Below are positions 17,535 to 30,769 of a stretch of DNA of 43,673 nucleotides, piece after piece; the first letter of the stretch is position 1; every line of letters starts with the position of its first letter. The notes below the pieces were generated by a model. The model was given only the letters and a program-made list of their open reading frames with translations, ran no database searches and was not told the origin of the DNA. A program made the position numbers and the translations under genes. Origin of the DNA: a virus; IMG/VR virus record IMGVR_UViG_3300025872_000099, positions 1-43,673 of that record; one strand, 5' to 3'.

Positions 17535-18056
17535 TCAAGGAGGGTTCACCAGAGAGTCACTGGTGTCATCCCTCGGAAGCTCAGCCAGCTGTTCCAGGAT
17601 CTCGTAGAGCTTGCCCGGATGGAGGTCCGGGAACTCGTAGATGCCGAGCTTCTTCCACTTCACGATGCCGGCGTGGCTGAGGGCGTGGGCGATCCAGGAG
17701 GAGCAGTACCACTTGCCCTTGCCCTTGATGATGAAGGGCAGGACCTGGGAGAGGAGCATGCCGGGCCAGTCGTAGCCGTCACCGGTGGTCTCCGAGATGA
17801 AGTCCTTCAGGGCGCGGAGCTCTTCCGGGGTGATGCGGAACTCGAGGTAGTCCCAGTCGCCCGGCGGCACTTGGGTTCGGACCCTTGCTGCGACACGAGT
17901 GAAGAGGAAGGGTGAGATGGAGACCCAGGTGTCGCCCTCGATGACGATCTCTGCGTGGGAGTACGGGCTCTTAGTCCACCAGCGGATGAAGCGGTGGTGC
18001 CATTCTTTCTTGTCGCCCTTGAAGAAGGCGATCCGGATGTGCTCAGTCCTGCGCAT
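17535..18056 (-). CDS. Permuted NlpC/P60 (YiiX/LRAT-like) cysteine hydrolase
   Basis: 173 residues from ATG 18056 (GGAGAG upstream). The order His34 in PYSHAEIV followed much later by Cys118 in KWYCSSWIAHAL is that of the circularly permuted papain-like hydrolases (YiiX, YaeF, LRAT type), which act on peptides, lipids or acyl groups. A possible role is cell-envelope cleavage or protein deacylation, but the substrate is not indicated. It overlaps the upstream small gene by 14 bases. Confidence 0.75.
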   Translation of the reverse strand: MRRTEHIRIAFFKGDKKEWHHRFIRWWTKSPYSHAEIVIEGDTWVSISPFLFTRVAARVRTQVPPGDWDYLEFRITPEELRALKDFISETTGDGYDWPGMLLSQVLPFIIKGKGKWYCSSWIAHALSHAGIVKWKKLGIYEFPDLHPGKLYEILEQLAELPRDDTSDSLVNPP

Positions 18057-18319: not shown

Positions 18320-18487
18320 CTAGAAGCCTCTCGTTGTTGGATGGTAGAATACTTTGCCCGTGACGTTGGTCGTCTTGGTGATCGTCGCGGTCGAGTAGTT
18401 GAACGTCAGGACGAAGTATTGGAATGTCTGGTTTGACACGTTTCGGGGTGCAAGAGAGCCAGCAAATGATGAAGTTCGTGAGAACAT
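18320..18487 (-). CDS. Short tail-tip protein with shared N-terminal peptide
   Basis: 55 residues from ATG 18487, 1 base after the stop of the LamG-like adhesin. It begins MFSRTSSFAGSLAPRN, a diverged copy of the MxGKMSSFSGPIS opening of the two preceding proteins. The remaining 40 residues are Thr/Asn/Tyr-rich beta-type sequence. It is the third member of the adhesin tandem and may be a minimal or truncated tip protein. Confidence 0.6.
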   Translation of the reverse strand: MFSRTSSFAGSLAPRNVSNQTFQYFVLTFNYSTATITKTTNVTGKVFYHPTTRGF

Positions 18488-18488
18488 C

Positions 18489-19223
18489 CTAGACTCCGTA
18501 TCTCGATCTTTGCGCGTTGAAGTTCTGTGTGACTTCTGCGGTGGACAGTCCCCTGTCGTAGATTCTCACGACAGGTATCGCACCGTGTGTGAAGTTTGTG
18601 CTGACATTGTCGACATCATCCCAGCGTCGGGCTATTCTGATTGCGCCACCCGACTGCGGAGTCCCCGAATAGCTCAGCGTGTAGGTCGTTACGACATTGA
18701 CATAGAGAGTCACAGTGCTGCCATCGTAGGTGCCTGCGTAGTGAACCCAGTTTCCGAGAACGGGTGTGTGCCCAGTTGCCACGTTCCTCCACGCACCATC
18801 GAAGAATCCGGCACGTACTGTCGATGACAGAGGTGCAGCAGCTCCCAACGCAAAGTTCACTTTGCTGACGCCATCGTATAGATTCGTGATGACTGCGTTG
18901 GTGCCTGCTGCAGGATTTCCGTCCCAGCGCATCCAAGCCTCTATCGTGAAAGTGTTGAGATCACCCAAGTTCGTTGCTGTATCGGCGTACTGATAGCTGC
19001 CAGAGTTGAATGTGAGGATGCCGCCATTAGCGCTTGAGTATGTCGGAGAATTTCTGAGTGTGAAGTTGACCCCCTGACCCGAGATGTCAGTCCAAGTCGT
19101 TCCCGTCCCTGGGTAGCTTCTTGAGTCTCCCGCATCAAGGTGAACGCGAAGCCCTCTTGTGACAACATACCTCGCCGGTGTGCTTGATATTGGGCCTGAG
19201 AACGATGACATCTTTCCAAACAT
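18489..19223 (-). CDS. Tail-tip adhesin with LamG/concanavalin-A-like domain
   Basis: 244 residues from ATG 19223, 1 base after the preceding stop. The N terminus MFGKMSSFSGPISSTP is nearly identical to that of the gene before it. A LamG-type jelly roll follows from about residue 20: LRVHLDAGDSRSYPG, FTIEAWMRWDG, NWVHYAGTYDGSTVTLYVN and IRIYDRGLSTAEV are typical strands. Such domains bind glycans or host surface proteins. It sits below the 929-residue fibre gene, so a host-binding role at the tail tip is likely. Confidence 0.8.
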   Translation of the reverse strand: MFGKMSSFSGPISSTPARYVVTRGLRVHLDAGDSRSYPGTGTTWTDISGQGVNFTLRNSPTYSSANGGILTFNSGSYQYADTATNLGDLNTFTIEAWMRWDGNPAAGTNAVITNLYDGVSKVNFALGAAAPLSSTVRAGFFDGAWRNVATGHTPVLGNWVHYAGTYDGSTVTLYVNVVTTYTLSYSGTPQSGGAIRIARRWDDVDNVSTNFTHGAIPVVRIYDRGLSTAEVTQNFNAQRSRYGV

Positions 19224-19224
19224 G

Positions 19225-19767
19225 TCACACCGTGAAGTAAAAGAGCTGTGTGAAAGTCTGGCGGCTTGTGGTTATTGAGGCATCGGTTGATTGTGTGTGC
19301 AGCGTGGTCCAGTTTGTGCTGTCATCGCTACCCTCGAAAGTCCACTGGACGGGATCTCTGCCGTCCACGTCGTTTGCTGTGGCGTACCTGAGGGAGTCTG
19401 CAATTTTCTTCGTGCTAGCTCCAAAATCGATCACAAGCTTCCACGACTTGGTCGCACCGGTGGATCCCCCATTGCCGCTCTGGTCTAGCCACTTGGTAGC
19501 GATCAGGCCGTCATTAGCCTTGGTGGGTTCTTCGCCGACCGGATTGTACCCACCTGGATTCGTGCACGTTGCTCCTGTGATTCCAATCGAAGTTCCAGCA
19601 TAGAACAGCTCGACCTCAGATACCTGAACCATTCCGATCGGCCAAGTGGGCAGATCCTGCGTGTAATCTCGAACCTTTGTGACAGAAAATCGATAGTAAC
19701 GGTAGGCTACTCTCGATTTTGGGTTCGGCGAAATCGGACCCGAGAAAGAAGACATTTTACCAAGCAT
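19225..19767 (-). CDS. Tail-tip adhesin with F5/8 type C (discoidin-like) domain
   Basis: 180 residues from ATG 19767, 4 bases after the fibre gene. It begins MLGKMSSFSGPISPNP, then a domain with VSEVELFYAGTSIG, NDGLIATKWLDQSG, SWKLVIDFG, and DPVQWTFEGSDDSTNWTTL, a good match to galactose-binding-like F5/8 type C modules. It probably recognises a host surface glycan or protein. Shares its N-terminal peptide with the next two genes. Confidence 0.8.
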   Translation of the reverse strand: MLGKMSSFSGPISPNPKSRVAYRYYRFSVTKVRDYTQDLPTWPIGMVQVSEVELFYAGTSIGITGATCTNPGGYNPVGEEPTKANDGLIATKWLDQSGNGGSTGATKSWKLVIDFGASTKKIADSLRYATANDVDGRDPVQWTFEGSDDSTNWTTLHTQSTDASITTSRQTFTQLFYFTV

Positions 19768-19771
19768 CTGA

Positions 19772-22561
19772 TCATCCGTATGTCGTCATCTGCCCAAGAA
19801 CTTTCCAGGCAGATCCCGACCTGATGAGGCTGAATCCAAACGCGTCCTGTTTGTTCGCAGTGCCCGTCGGAACGACGTTGTTCGCCCAATTTATCGTCTG
19901 CGCAGCTCCGTCGATCTGCACGGCATTTACGACTCTGGGCGTCGCAGATTGTGAGAGGATCACTGTGGGAGTGATTACTCTCAGGTTGGTAGTCGGCGCG
20001 TTGGTGAAATTCGCAGTTACGTTACCGGCTGGGTTGTTGACATAGAAGACCGACTGCGCCAGCAGATCGAACCCGGTTACTCCTGTGCTGCCGACAGAGT
20101 TGGAAAGTCTCTCGACCACCCCGCCGAAGGAGGTTCTACCATTGACCACAAGATCTCCAACTAGAGTGCCTGTTGAGGTGGGTGACCCCAAGAAGACATT
20201 CGTCACTGCACCGCCAATGTTGAGGGTCCCGGTCAGCACAGTATTGAGGAGGTTGAACGTCGTCGTTGTCGTCGTGGTGAGTACAGATCCCGTGATCGTT
20301 ACGTCTCCCTGGATGTCGACGTTTCCTGTCTCAGTGACCCTGAACTGGTTCACGTTGTTGAAGTCCCTGACGGCGAAGAAGTGTCCCGCCCCGTTGTTAT
20401 TCGCGTCGAGCTTGATCGTTGCGTTACCGCTCGACACGAGTTGGATGTCGGTGGCGTCGGTGTTTACAGCGACTATTCCCGTGCTGAGGAAGAGGTCATT
20501 GCTGATGGTCGTGCTTCCAAGGAACGTCGGGCCAGCAGATGCGGAACCGATGAGGATGGTTCCATCGTTTCTCACCTCGAACAGATCTCTGAAGCTCGAG
20601 GCGTTGGTGGTCACGTTCCTCACCCTAAACATACCAGCGCCTGTCGTGCCGCTTGTCTGGAGCTCAATTCTGCTGTTGACAGCTTGCTGCTGCATCAGGA
20701 ACTGACCAGCAGTATTCGTTACTGCGCCGTTACCGTTGTGTAACATTGTAAGCTGCTGCGCAGTGCCAAAGCGGATCTTTCCTGCCGTTCCAATGTCGAT
20801 GTCCCTTCCGAAAGCTGTAACTGCTCCAACACCGGTAGCACCTATGTTTAGGGTAGTTGGTGAGCTTAGCAAATTGAAAGTCGTTGCAGTCGTTGTGATG
20901 TCGCCTCCTACGACTGCAAGGTCACCAGTTAGACTCAAATTTGAGCCAGTGATGTTTCCACCAATCTGTAGGTCGCTGGATCCACTGATGACACCACCCG
21001 TGGAGACGCTAGCGACCACGGCACCTGCGCCGCTCTTGACCTGGAAAGTTCCCGATGAGACAAGCGAGCCAGCAGAAGATCCTGTGACCACAAGATTTGC
21101 AACTAGAGCAGTTCCTGTCCCTTTCACAAACCTGAAGTCGCTGGTTCCGTTGAAGACTGCCGCATCATTAAACTGGACGTAAGTGTCAGAGCCGCCAGGT
21201 GTTCCTGTTGCACCGGCACCAGAAGATGCCACAGCGCGGAATGAACCAGCCTGCACGATCCTGTATGTAGTTGGATCTGTAAAGTCTAGGCCTGTACCCT
21301 TGACGATGACGTAGCCTAAGAATATCGCTGCATCTCGGGTGTTTTTGCCCTCAGTGAAGACTTCGGTGGCGATGCCTGCCTGGGCATCAGACAGAGTGGA
21401 GTAGATCGTGCTACCGTAGTAGACGTAGAATGCGCGATTAACAGAGTTCGGAAACCAGTAGACGCGCTGGATCGTGTACTTGTTTCCGGTGCCAACCGTC
21501 GTCAGGGTGCCGGCATTGTTGTATTGGGCAAAGTCGAGGACAGAATATCCGACATTTCCGTTGTTGAGGATGACGTCATCGCCTGACGCATTGACGTACT
21601 CATAGAATATCTTCGAGGTGGTCTGTGCTGTGTCTGTTGTGGAGGAGACGTAGTTCGGGCTATCGGGGTCAACGCTGTAGTTTCGACCCTCAGCGTAGGA
21701 ATCACCTGCATCCTTCTGAAGTCCCTGTGTTCCGTTCGCAGAAAGCGTGTGACCGCTGAGCTTGATGGGACCGAAAGCACGGACGAAGTCTCCTCGGAAC
21801 TGGTTGAGACCGTACGAGACCAAGGGCTGGTTCACAGCTCCGTTCGTTCCCACCTTGTCGGTGTGGAGGATCCTACCCAGGACGATGTAGTCGTTGTAGT
21901 CGCCGTTAGTGAACGGGATCGACTTCAGGAAGGGAGTTCCTGTGCTGTCCATCGCGATGTAGGTGATCTGCGTCGTGGAGAGGGAAGGAAGGGCTTGACC
22001 GGTGAGAGCGGGCCACGAGACTCGGGTTATCGTAGGATAGGGTTCATTGGCATCAGCCGTGGAGCTACCGTGAGCGTTGTAGGTGACTATGAGTCCGGAA
22101 CCCGAGTTGATGTTGTAGGTGGTCGACCCAGAGGTCGAGGAGAGCGTACCACCCGCCAGGAGGCCCGTGCTGAGACCTGATTCCAACCAGCGGAGGCGGG
22201 TCGTGTTGGTATAACCCGTGCCCGGCTGGTATTGGGTGAAGTAGAGGTCGTTGGTGGAGCCGGACGTGTAGATGTAGCTCGCGGTGGTGTTGGTTGGGAT
22301 CAGGAGGGTGCCGACCGGCTTCATCTGGATGTAGGAGTCCGTGCCGAAAGCGCCGGAGACGAAGGTATCGCCGCCGAAGACAGCTACGGGTGTGTCTGCC
22401 CCAGTCAATGTCTTTGCACCAGAGACAAAGAGTTTTACTCCTGATCCGATAGAAGACAGAGTCGGAAATCTTGAGCTCGGCTCATCTGCGATGATGAGAG
22501 ATCCCGATATTGCTGTAGTGGAAGTTCCGTTGCTACCTGATACTGTGCCTACGAGAGCCAT
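19772..22561 (-). CDS. Large tail-fibre protein
   Basis: 929 residues from ATG 22561 (GAGGTAAG upstream). Long, Gly/Thr/Ser/Asn-rich and beta-helical in character, with repeated short modules such as GDLAVVGGDITTTATTFNL that also occur in the other fibre (32321-34174). A conserved knob-like end contains WANNVVPTGTANKQDAFGFSLIRSGSAWKV. No chaperone gene follows; instead three small adhesins lie directly downstream. A hairpin lies ahead of its leader. Confidence 0.85.
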   Translation of the reverse strand: MALVGTVSGSNGTSTTAISGSLIIADEPSSRFPTLSSIGSGVKLFVSGAKTLTGADTPVAVFGGDTFVSGAFGTDSYIQMKPVGTLLIPTNTTASYIYTSGSTNDLYFTQYQPGTGYTNTTRLRWLESGLSTGLLAGGTLSSTSGSTTYNINSGSGLIVTYNAHGSSTADANEPYPTITRVSWPALTGQALPSLSTTQITYIAMDSTGTPFLKSIPFTNGDYNDYIVLGRILHTDKVGTNGAVNQPLVSYGLNQFRGDFVRAFGPIKLSGHTLSANGTQGLQKDAGDSYAEGRNYSVDPDSPNYVSSTTDTAQTTSKIFYEYVNASGDDVILNNGNVGYSVLDFAQYNNAGTLTTVGTGNKYTIQRVYWFPNSVNRAFYVYYGSTIYSTLSDAQAGIATEVFTEGKNTRDAAIFLGYVIVKGTGLDFTDPTTYRIVQAGSFRAVASSGAGATGTPGGSDTYVQFNDAAVFNGTSDFRFVKGTGTALVANLVVTGSSAGSLVSSGTFQVKSGAGAVVASVSTGGVISGSSDLQIGGNITGSNLSLTGDLAVVGGDITTTATTFNLLSSPTTLNIGATGVGAVTAFGRDIDIGTAGKIRFGTAQQLTMLHNGNGAVTNTAGQFLMQQQAVNSRIELQTSGTTGAGMFRVRNVTTNASSFRDLFEVRNDGTILIGSASAGPTFLGSTTISNDLFLSTGIVAVNTDATDIQLVSSGNATIKLDANNNGAGHFFAVRDFNNVNQFRVTETGNVDIQGDVTITGSVLTTTTTTTFNLLNTVLTGTLNIGGAVTNVFLGSPTSTGTLVGDLVVNGRTSFGGVVERLSNSVGSTGVTGFDLLAQSVFYVNNPAGNVTANFTNAPTTNLRVITPTVILSQSATPRVVNAVQIDGAAQTINWANNVVPTGTANKQDAFGFSLIRSGSAWKVLGQMTTYG

Positions 22562-26728: not shown

Positions 26729-26966
26729 GGACGACCTCGATGTCTTCCCAGTCAAAATGCATGAACCTGTTGCCGATGAGAACGTAAGCCATGATGTCAC
26801 TCTGGTTGCCGAGACCAACGTAGTCTATCGTATCAACCAAGAGCCCGTGTTTCTCGTCAACGAGATCATTCCACATCGCGAAATCATTGTCGTAGTTTAA
26901 ACTGACAATGTCGCTCCTGTGAAACTCCTTGCCGTCACGTCGAGTCCAAAGGAGTTCACCGGGCAT
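26715..26966 (-). CDS. Small SH3-like protein
   Basis: 83 residues from ATG 26966, overlapping the topoisomerase stop. Contains HRSDIVSLNYDND, GLLVDTIDYVGLGNQSDIMAYVLIGN and FDWEDIEVV, i.e. the short-strand pattern with an initial [DK]xxDIV. It overlaps the next gene by 14 bases. Function unknown. Confidence 0.62.
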   Translation of the reverse strand: MPGELLWTRRDGKEFHRSDIVSLNYDNDFAMWNDLVDEKHGLLVDTIDYVGLGNQSDIMAYVLIGNRFMHFDWEDIEVVREEG

Positions 26967-28326
26967 GACTCTTCTCGACCTGGGAGCGGAGGTCCTTCAG
27001 GTCCTGCCGGTAGAAGTCTGCAGGCTTCGTCTTCTCGACCTTCTCCTTCTCCTTCCGCTTCTGCTCGACCTTCTTCTGGATCTCTACGAACTTCTCGTAG
27101 GTGAGCGACCAGATCGGCATGCTGAGGAGGAAGTCGTGGGAACCGTCGACCTTCGGGATTCCCTCGGCCTCGATGGACTTCAGGATGTCGGGCTTCTTCT
27201 CGTTCACCACGACGATCCGACCCTTCACGACTGCGTCGACAAAGTCCATCCGAGCGTTGAGGACCTCGAGCTCTCTCGTGAGCTCTGCGAGGAGGTGGGC
27301 CTTCCGCTTTCCGTAGTAGTTGAGTCGGAAGTCCACGAAGTATCGGACAACATCTTCGGCACGATCAAAGACTCGCAGCTTGCCGTGTTCATCGAGAGTT
27401 GTGAGGTTCTCGCCCTCGCCCTCCCGCATCTTCAGGAGGTCACCGAGCCGGTCCTTCTTGATCCACTCGGCGAGGACAGCGCGGGGAAACTTCAGGATGT
27501 AGTGAACGCGATCAGAAGAGTGGTCGTCGTAGGTCGCGAGGATCCCCTTCTCAACGAGAGAGTCGAGGTACTGCTCGTACTTCTCGTAGGTGAAGGAAGG
27601 CGGGATCTCGGTGATCTCGACAGTCGAAGTGTTCTTCACCTCGTACTTGCCCCAGAACGACCAGGAGCGGGGAGCGTTCTCGACCGGTGTGATGTCGCCC
27701 CAGAAACCGCGAAGCCAGGGTCTCAGGACGGGAACTTCCTTGCCCTCAAGGGCGGCCATGCAGGCATCGATGAGGTCAAGAGGGTGTCTGTTGAGGATGT
27801 TCGTCGCGAAGCCGACCGCGATGCCTGAGCCACCGTTGAGAAGGACCGTGGGAATGATGGGGAGGAAGAACTTCGGTTCGATCTCCTCACCCTCCTCGTG
27901 CTGGGATGTGACGAGCTCGAAGTCCTTGTAAAGGAGCCTGAAGTTCTCGTTGAACTTTACTCCGATGTATCGAGGAGCACCAGCGGTCGGAGATCGCAGA
28001 GACCCAAACTGACCGATGCCCTGGAAGATGGGCATGGAGTTCTTGAACTCCTGCGTCATGCCGATGATGGTGCCATCGAGTGAACCGTGGTGGAAGAAGG
28101 AGATCGCCGCAGCCTGGCCACCGAGTTGGAAGACCTTCATGGGCTTCTCGTTGCCGGTCTTCCAGAGGCGATTGGCAGCGTAGGCGATCTTCCGTTGGGA
28201 AGGCTTGAAACCATCGATCACTGATGGGATTGCGCGATTGGAAATCGTATACTTTGCGTAATCACAATATTCGTTATCGAAGAAGTCCTCAACATGACGG
28301 ACTGGAACCTGTTGGGTCTCTTCCAA
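26956..28326 (-). CDS. 52: Type II DNA topoisomerase medium subunit (T4 gp52-like)
   Basis: 456 residues if TTG 28326 is the start (AGGAGG 5 bases upstream); the in-frame ATG 28344 lies inside the predicted -10 box TATAAT and lacks a ribosome-binding site. The DNA-cleavage domain has SVIDGFKPSQRKI, GSLDGTIIGMTQ, and GAPRYIG with the catalytic Tyr (about residue 120) that links to the DNA 5' end. A GyrA-like coiled-coil region follows. It works with the large subunit encoded at 28910-30769, with a Nudix gene in between. Confidence 0.93.
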   Translation of the reverse strand: MEETQQVPVRHVEDFFDNEYCDYAKYTISNRAIPSVIDGFKPSQRKIAYAANRLWKTGNEKPMKVFQLGGQAAAISFFHHGSLDGTIIGMTQEFKNSMPIFQGIGQFGSLRSPTAGAPRYIGVKFNENFRLLYKDFELVTSQHEEGEEIEPKFFLPIIPTVLLNGGSGIAVGFATNILNRHPLDLIDACMAALEGKEVPVLRPWLRGFWGDITPVENAPRSWSFWGKYEVKNTSTVEITEIPPSFTYEKYEQYLDSLVEKGILATYDDHSSDRVHYILKFPRAVLAEWIKKDRLGDLLKMREGEGENLTTLDEHGKLRVFDRAEDVVRYFVDFRLNYYGKRKAHLLAELTRELEVLNARMDFVDAVVKGRIVVVNEKKPDILKSIEAEGIPKVDGSHDFLLSMPIWSLTYEKFVEIQKKVEQKRKEKEKVEKTKPADFYRQDLKDLRSQVEKSHAR

Positions 28327-28344
28327 TATGACCTCCTGTGTCAT

Positions 28345-28909: not shown

Positions 28910-30769
28910 CTATTCTCCCGATTCGGCTTCCTCTTCACCGCCCATGATCTTCGCCTTTCGGGGAGCAGAGTCACCGGCGAACCAGGTGTCGAGCGTCGTC
29001 TTCAGCTCCTTACCACCGGCAATGGAGAACATCTTCGGATTCTGGATGATCTCCTTGTACTCGGCATCCTCCAGAGCGGCGAGCCCCTTCTTGTAGGCGA
29101 TGTCCCACTTCTTCGGGTCCCTCACCTTTCCCATCCACTCCTCGAAGTCGGCGTTGGTGTAGAAAGAGAGGGTCTCACCACCCTTCTTCGCGACCACGAG
29201 GGGAGTCATCACTCGACAGATTCTTCCCTGGTCGAAGAGCTCAGGCCAGTATCGACCGAAGAAGTTCATCAGGAGTCCGGCGATGGAGTCACCGTCGGGA
29301 TCTGCGTCGGAGTAGATGAGGACTTTTCCGTAGCGGAGGTCCTTGGGCTCCTCTCCCATCTTCAGTCCGATCGCAGTGAGGAGGTCCTTGACTTCCTGGT
29401 TCTGGATGACCCGGGTGTTGGGAAGCTCGGTGACGTTGATGAACTTGCCCCGAAGGGGGAAGGCGCCCTGGTTCATCGGGTCGCGGTACTTGCGGAAGGC
29501 GGAGGAAGCGGAATCTCCCTCGAAGAGGCTGAGAGTGCAGGAGTTCCGGTCAACCCGCGCCTTCGCATCGATGAGCTTCAGGACCTTTCCCTTCGCAATG
29601 TTCTTATTGAGCTCACGGAGCTGCTTGCGTTCCTCGGCAAGCGCCTTCTGCTGCGCCCAGTCGAGGATGCGTTGAACGACCTCAGAGGCGAGAATCTGCT
29701 TCAGGGTCCTCTCGCTGATCTCGAACTTGGAGCCGAACTCCTTCGACTCAGTGATCATCTTCTCCTTCGTCTGGGAGGAGAACGCCGGATTGACGATGTC
29801 GGCCTGCACCATCACGAAGAAGTGGTTGCGAAGCTCAGCGGGTTTGAGGTCGACCTTGTGCTTCTTCCGCACCTTCTCTCGAATCCACTCGAGGACCTGC
29901 CACACCACATAGTCAACGTGAGTGCCGCCGTCCTTCGTCTCGACCGAGTTCACGAAGGAGACCTGCGTGAAGGAGCCCTCCGACGGAGCAATGCCCACCT
30001 TCCAACGATCGACCTCCTCGTAGATGACCGACTGCGTGTAGAGTGTGCAGTAGTCCTTGAACGTGGGGAAGCGGTGCTCGTTCCCGTTGAACTTCACGGT
30101 GAGCTTCGGATTACAGGCCGCCAGATCGAGGCACCGCTTCTGCATGATCGCGATGTGATCCTCATCGATCCGCTCCATCCCAAAGCGGGAGAGGTCGGGC
30201 TGGAAGAGGATCTCTGTGAACCCCTCCTTCCACTTGACGACCTTCGCGTCGGAACGCTCTCGCATGTTGTTGGAGAACGTCTGCTGATAAGCGTTCTTCC
30301 CATCTGCGGTCCGAACCCGGAACTTCGTAGAGAAGATGTTTGTGAGAGTCGAGCCCACGCCGTTCGTACCAGCGACGAGGCGCTCCTCGTCATCGTTGAA
30401 GTTGGAACCTGCCTTCAGGTTGCTGAAGATCATCTCGGGGACCCACTCGTCATACTCAGAGTGCTTGACGACAGGAATGCCGCCATTATCCCAGACGGTG
30501 ATCGAGCAATTCTCGGGATCGACGGTGACCCGGATCTCATTGAGCTTTGGGTTGCGCCTGTGCTCATCGACAGAGTTCGACACGATCTCATCGAAGATCT
30601 TCATGAAAGCGGGATTGTACGTCACCTTCCGCTTCTTGAAGCCGCCCTCCTCGCTTAGAAGGTGGAGGTCCTCCTCACGCGGCTTCACTGAGCCGACGTA
30701 CATTCCCGGACGGAGGAGGACGTGTTCGATGTCGGAGAGCTTCCTGTACTTCTCTTCGATTGACTTCAT
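28910..30769 (-). CDS. 39: Type II DNA topoisomerase large subunit (T4 gp39/gp60-like fusion)
   Basis: 619 residues. GHKL ATPase landmarks: EIVSNSVDEHRR (Asn/Asp), VWDNGGIPV and GTNGVGST. The TOPRIM domain has EGDSASSAFR (about 415) and SDADPDGD (about 486-493), with metal-binding acids. In T4 these activities are split between gp39 and gp60; here they are in one chain, as in many related phages. It relaxes positive supercoils during replication with the medium subunit. ATG 30769 follows AGGAAGG. Confidence 0.93.
   Translation of the reverse strand: MKSIEEKYRKLSDIEHVLLRPGMYVGSVKPREEDLHLLSEEGGFKKRKVTYNPAFMKIFDEIVSNSVDEHRRNPKLNEIRVTVDPENCSITVWDNGGIPVVKHSEYDEWVPEMIFSNLKAGSNFNDDEERLVAGTNGVGSTLTNIFSTKFRVRTADGKNAYQQTFSNNMRERSDAKVVKWKEGFTEILFQPDLSRFGMERIDEDHIAIMQKRCLDLAACNPKLTVKFNGNEHRFPTFKDYCTLYTQSVIYEEVDRWKVGIAPSEGSFTQVSFVNSVETKDGGTHVDYVVWQVLEWIREKVRKKHKVDLKPAELRNHFFVMVQADIVNPAFSSQTKEKMITESKEFGSKFEISERTLKQILASEVVQRILDWAQQKALAEERKQLRELNKNIAKGKVLKLIDAKARVDRNSCTLSLFEGDSASSAFRKYRDPMNQGAFPLRGKFINVTELPNTRVIQNQEVKDLLTAIGLKMGEEPKDLRYGKVLIYSDADPDGDSIAGLLMNFFGRYWPELFDQGRICRVMTPLVVAKKGGETLSFYTNADFEEWMGKVRDPKKWDIAYKKGLAALEDAEYKEIIQNPKMFSIAGGKELKTTLDTWFAGDSAPRKAKIMGGEEEAESGE

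Follow-up and report, generated by a model that had tools for sequence, protein, structure and literature searches.

The window analysed here is the whole 43,673-base stretch of IMG/VR record IMGVR_UViG_3300025872_000099, which derives from an uncultivated virus of bacteria. No end repeats were found in it, and it is therefore possibly a fragment. It also carries two DNA topoisomerase II subunit genes (26956-28344 and 28910-30769), and the best match of the large subunit (55%) is in a 642-kb uncultured phage record, so that the window may have come from a large phage genome.

The minus strand of the window encodes a 929-aa tail fibre (19772-22561; PHROG phrog_16641, tail fiber protein, E 2e-15), with relatives in loci L081-L084, which is the presumed carrier of the adhesins. 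Its C-terminal domain of about 110 aa (19775-20107), the proposed socket, was recognised by its position at the ORF end in related loci, by a block in an AlphaFold2 model and by a match to gp9/XD1-like structures. Downstream on the same strand, between 18320 and 19767, lie the three consecutive ORFs noticed in an earlier sequence-only reading, and our coordinates and starts agree with it. ORF1 (19225-19767, 180 aa) begins 4 nt after the fibre stop, and the ATGs of ORF2 (18489-19223, 244 aa) and ORF3 (18320-18487, 55 aa) are each found 1 nt past the preceding stop. In phages of the T2/S16/PP01 type, the gp38 adhesin gene comes directly after the fibre gene, and ORF1, directly downstream of a long fibre gene, occupies the gene position of a T2/S16-type gp38 adhesin. 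Further along the window, at 17535-18056, a 173-aa gene has no Pfam match, and a similar gene is present downstream of the cassette in L176.

The first 14 residues of ORF1 (19726-19767) and ORF2 (19182-19223) are identical at 12 positions, yet 9 of 10 informative codons differ, which points to selection on the peptide rather than to recent copying of the DNA. Among 6257 control pairs drawn from unrelated second and third genes, none reached the ORF1/ORF2 start score of 61, whereas 10 reached that of ORF1/ORF3 (31) and 13 that of ORF2/ORF3 (30), in a control set that itself contained ORF2 as a second gene and in which 6 of the 12 top pairs involve it. The earlier observation of a common start is confirmed. 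The start of ORF1 shares 8/14 and 5/14 residues with its body relatives in L081 and L102, that of ORF2 shares 6 to 9 of 14 with five LamG starts, and among the 18 starts compared ORF1 and ORF2 are each other's best match. The start variant of F5/8C+PA14 proteins is kept in ORF3 and in the second of the L089 adhesins, each of which has only 6/14 residues in common with the first peptide encoded in the same genome. An exact search of viral contigs for the DNA encoding SSFSGPI with TCN codons returned 79 stretches, none of which resembles the adhesin family; the matches in L002, L016, L020 and L021 have an ATG within about 8 residues upstream, unrelated following sequence and frames of about 34 to 113 residues. 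Since the peptide is conserved as protein and not as DNA, this route was abandoned.

Behind this start, the bodies of ORF1 and ORF2 are unrelated. ORF2 is a LamG protein (PF13385, 73.9 bits for a Pfam cut-off of 27.6). ORF1 is F5/8C (discoidin)-like: its match to PF00754 (22.6 bits) stays below the cut-off of 28.2, which its relatives in L089 and L091 exceed (28.5 and 28.3 bits, respectively). No depolymerase family of Pfam or PHROG matches ORF1 or ORF2, and none of the three ORFs matches GP38 (PF05268, with its Gly-rich PGII body) in Pfam. The sequence-only reading had given ORF3 a body of its own, a short beta-rich tail, which does not stand: ORF3 aligns over its full length to the two ends (residues 1-25 and the final 30) of an F5/8C+PA14 protein, with 82, 80, 80 and 52% identity to the intact proteins of L082, L087, L089 and L091, about 290 residues being missing in frame from ORF3 as assembled. 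In L089 the intact F5/8C+PA14 gene follows fibre and LamG genes, in the slot of ORF3. On the strength of this two-ended alignment, ORF3 in the assembled sequence is an in-frame internal-deletion derivative, or remnant, of an F5/8C+PA14 adhesin, whose 55-aa product may be used or decaying, or may reflect an assembly error.

Scans for relatives covered 4 loci for the fibre, 10 for F5/8C and 6 for LamG, several of them on the same contigs; those with the fibre C-terminus covered the best 80 of 289 matches and then the best 80 of at least 400. The gene directly 3' of the fibre encodes F5/8C in L081, L083, L086/L102 and L093, F5/8C+PA14 in L082, L087 and L091, PA14 alone in L105-L111, and LamG in L089/L092, L175, L176 and L177, and variants of the start on such genes include MFGRFSSFAGSLSP, MLSRTSSFAGSLAP, MISRISSFAGPISY and MYGRFSNFAGPIST. 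The proposed search of related phages for the same start on other domains thus bore fruit, as the peptide is joined to F5/8C (L081), F5/8C+PA14 (L082, L087), PA14 (L105-L111) and LamG (L092, L175-L177), and also occurs in tandem. In both L175 and L176, LamG is followed by PA14, both genes carry the peptide (12/14 and 11/14 identical within the contig), and the second genes of such tandems keep it even though they do not adjoin the fibre. Among isolate phages, a tblastn search of 50,697 records returned no match to ORF1, and the intact F5/8C+PA14 protein of L089 gave one partial match only. The peptide is absent from the LamG gene starts of LR756501, Flavobacterium immuto, S-SKS1, S-PM2 (whose LamG lies within a long protein) and Sf-CH1b, five phages in which no fibre-domain match was found nearby, the neighbouring genes having been tested in the last four. 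Two phage records of the 600-kb class likewise gave no fibre-domain match.

A wider set of genes following such fibres was also compared. Searched with a profile, the window and L081-L267 among the matches listed make up 188 loci, and in 186 of them the fibre C-terminal domain ends the ORF; 69 of 80 next genes begin no more than 6 nt from the fibre stop. Cultured relatives that have this pair of genes include Actinomycetia phage DSL-LC01 and Synechococcus phage S-H38. Leaving L001-L080 out of the statistics, 96 unique next genes were retained, or 95 once the out-of-frame ORF of L265 was dropped, and these fall into 24 body clusters. Compared between clusters, residues 1-15 score at least 15 in 32% of the 276 cluster pairs, a level reached by 3.9% of 1326 pairs of second and third genes and by 2.5% of the 276 pairs when residues 31-45 are compared instead. 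Of 30 representatives, 28 were next genes and 2 were second genes of tandems; Pfam recovered LamG, F5/8C, PA14/GLEYA, Gly_rich_2, FG-GAP, YHYH, RCC1, DUF285, SGL propeller, He_PIG, SPRY and GP38, and gave no match at E 0.01 for 12 of the 30. GP38 (PF05268) was found in L196, the one relative above its cut-off (25.3 for 25 bits); PDB sequence searches with L182 and L196 turned up no gp38 structure. An adhesin body naturally fused to the fibre domain was sought among the 53 matches lying more than 12 residues from a frame end, and none is confident (all independent E at least 9).

Does the peptide follow the fibre? For pairs of genes with different bodies, similarity of the starts was compared with aligned identity of the fibre domains. 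In 80 genes, that is, the 95 minus 15 with other kinds of start whose exclusion was chosen after the starts had been inspected, peptide and fibre identities correlate (rho 0.288, 0/2000 permutations), while residues 31-45 of the body do not (rho 0.012). The correlation persists when this set is thinned to 46 genes (rho 0.27, 2/5000) or deprived of the window-like group (rho 0.263, 0/2000). With all 95 genes it falls to 0.154 (15/2000), with 57 genes after thinning to 0.136 (101/2000), and without the window-like group to 0.092 (185/2000). An initial calculation on the 95 genes with end-anchored ungapped identity had given a rho of -0.04; this poor measure was replaced by aligned identity. A profile built leaving out one body cluster at a time separated the best peptides from controls, the peptide of the window ranking only at the top 12% of controls. 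The fibre C-terminal domain is therefore tracked by the similarity of the peptides and not by that of the bodies, a relationship that is strong without the 15 peptide-less genes and weak otherwise. Linkage of the peptide to the adjoining fibre gene could be the source of part of this covariation.

Structure prediction gave a beta domain at the fibre C-terminus, with an AlphaFold2 block of pLDDT 85-94 over residues 51-150 of a 150-residue model. Among the solved structures that score best against this model are the Pa223 capsid spike (Z 8.1) and, at Z 5.1-6.8, baseplate chains of Klebsiella phage KP1, CBA120 TSP4, CpaA, StcE and T4 gp9. T4 gp9, TSP4 XD1, CpaA and StcE (1qex, 7rej/7rfo, 6o38 and 4dny, at middling Z scores of 5.1-6.3) form the set given for XD1 in the available part of a description of TSP4 (PMC8825819), in which XD1 modules act as spacers and not as docking sites. 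The predicted fold hence suggests a trimeric attachment-region module of the gp9/XD1 type, without demonstrating a docking site. Residues 1-18 of ORF1 are unstructured in a single-chain AlphaFold2 model (pLDDT below 50), as expected of a free peptide; in a model of poor overall quality (mean pLDDT 61), this is weak evidence for one.

We consider it probable that the locus is a fibre-tip adhesin cassette, in which a short start peptide docks exchangeable bodies onto the fibre end. The gene order, the conservation of the peptide at the protein level, the exchange of bodies and the tie between peptide and fibre domain are observations, and their association is real, beyond what chance would produce; from them we infer physical docking, location in the virion, adhesion, an effect on host range and stoichiometry. 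The fibre would end in a conserved, probably trimeric beta domain acting as a socket, and the next genes, apparently co-translated from the message of the fibre, would provide small lectin-type adhesins. Their first 13-14 residues would form a flexible plug seated distally on the fibre end, with the body pointing outward to bind a surface-exposed glycan or protein. Being short and independent of what it carries, the plug would allow new bodies, fusions such as F5/8C+PA14, tandem arrangements of F5/8C and then LamG, and the loss of a body as in ORF3, while the fibre itself stays unchanged. Tandem adhesins might share one virion or compete for the socket. The recurrence of the start on other modules, its tie to the fibre domain and its absence from the LamG proteins of five phages without that domain nearby support the docking handle with interchangeable modules that had been proposed from the sequence alone, except that ORF3 does not supply a third type of module.

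The same start could instead be a mere trace of gene duplication, or of a recombination hot spot beside the fibre gene, and serve no docking at all. Adjacency alone would keep the start of the next gene linked to the fibre end, and the covariation is modest, but residues are conserved while codons have changed, tandem second genes keep the peptide away from the fibre, and LamG relatives without the fibre domain nearby lack it; we regard this explanation as unlikely. It is quite unlikely, too, that the downstream proteins are chaperones of fibre folding, as T4 gp38 is, that touch the fibre end transiently through the peptide and are not adhesins. T4 gp38 is described, in the accessible part of one paper, as a chaperone released after assembly (PMC12892980); the gene position is the same, and two Gly-rich examples are matched by PHROG phrog_863 (tail fiber assembly). 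Against this, the bodies belong to unrelated surface-binding types (LamG, F5/8C, PA14, FG-GAP, RCC1, YHYH), are exchanged, fused and set in tandem, and in L196 pass the Pfam cut-off for the gp38 adhesin.

Attachment elsewhere on the tail, at the baseplate or the shaft, would make the gene order incidental, and the authors of a pelagimyophage study, in the portion available, left similar proteins as part of a tail fibre complex or of the baseplate (PMC7029224). The conserved gap of a few nucleotides and the covariation with the fibre C-terminal domain speak against such a location, which we judge very unlikely.

Docking at the fibre end by a short peptide has close parallels. The K1-5/K1E/SP6 and the Klebsiella KP32, KP34 and Menlow groups dock their second receptor-binding proteins by a short conserved peptide (Latka 2019, PMC6872550, available in part). 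The short N-terminal peptide, there of down to 7 residues, and the exchangeable bodies are common to both systems. According to the same text, those proteins carry tailspike depolymerases as bodies and find their socket in a T4gp10-like domain of the first protein, whereas the bodies of the window are small lectin-type domains (F5/8C-like in ORF1 and LamG in ORF2, not beta-helical depolymerases) and a long fibre would offer its C-terminal domain as the socket. This domain aligns to XD1/gp9-type structures (Z 5.1-6.3) and may still be of the T4gp10-like XD2/XD3 type. The XD1/gp9 fold of CBA120 TSP4 and T4 gp10-gp9 resembles the fibre-domain model, but is a spacer in what is available of PMC8825819 and stands at the fibre end here. 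With gp38 of T2/S16/PP01-type phages the cassette would share, besides the gene position, a compatibility set by the N-terminus: that gp38 sits at the fibre tip and contacts gp37 through its N-terminus, and its compatibility was transferred together with 113 N-terminal residues (PMC12892980, in part). The cassette differs in having about 14 shared residues instead of 113, and LamG, F5/8C, PA14 and other bodies instead of a Gly-rich PGII body. Marine host-recognition islands combine variable lectin-like, YHYH, concanavalin and gp38 genes with tail fibres, and the available parts of their descriptions give no common start peptide or attachment rule (PMC3909814, PMC7029224). Neither the start peptide nor the fibre-domain rule was found in the literature searched, mostly outside subscription journals and partly in excerpts. 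Docking by short peptides and adhesins at fibre tips both have precedents; what looks new is the pairing of the two, and its breadth.

The chances seem to us evenly balanced that this is a general rule among aquatic phages, in which the gene after a fibre of this C-terminal type encodes an adhesin that plugs into it through its first dozen residues, one socket serving some 20 bodies unrelated to one another (lectin folds, beta-propellers, DUF285 repeats, PA14, Gly-rich and gp38). In uncultivated phages the receptor-binding protein can rarely be recognised, which makes host range difficult to predict. If the rule is true, that protein could be named from sequence in many of them, as a start peptide tied to the fibre C-terminal domain would flag it whatever the body. 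The same tie would explain the exchange of host specificity in marine and freshwater phages, and plug and socket together make a small two-part interaction that can be tested.

Several other arrangements were noticed in the course of this work. A 998-aa RCC1 beta-propeller protein is encoded directly after a fibre with the same C-terminal domain (L206, 3337-6330), and a 542-aa DUF285-repeat protein (E 1.5e-187) also directly follows a fibre (L224, 2264-3889). In the 735-kb record LR756501, in which the fibre domain of the window has no match, tandem LamG genes follow a fibre-like ORF (L268, 5004-8079) and have another common start (MSINYAPKMV, MSVNHAPRIV). Tandem genes with PTGWTKD-like motifs lie 3' of the fibre in L115, L130, L137 and L167, the first of each alone having an adhesin-like start. 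Finally, another recurring start, MALNFP/MSLNFP, is found on genes directly after such fibres in L156, L168, L207 and L223.
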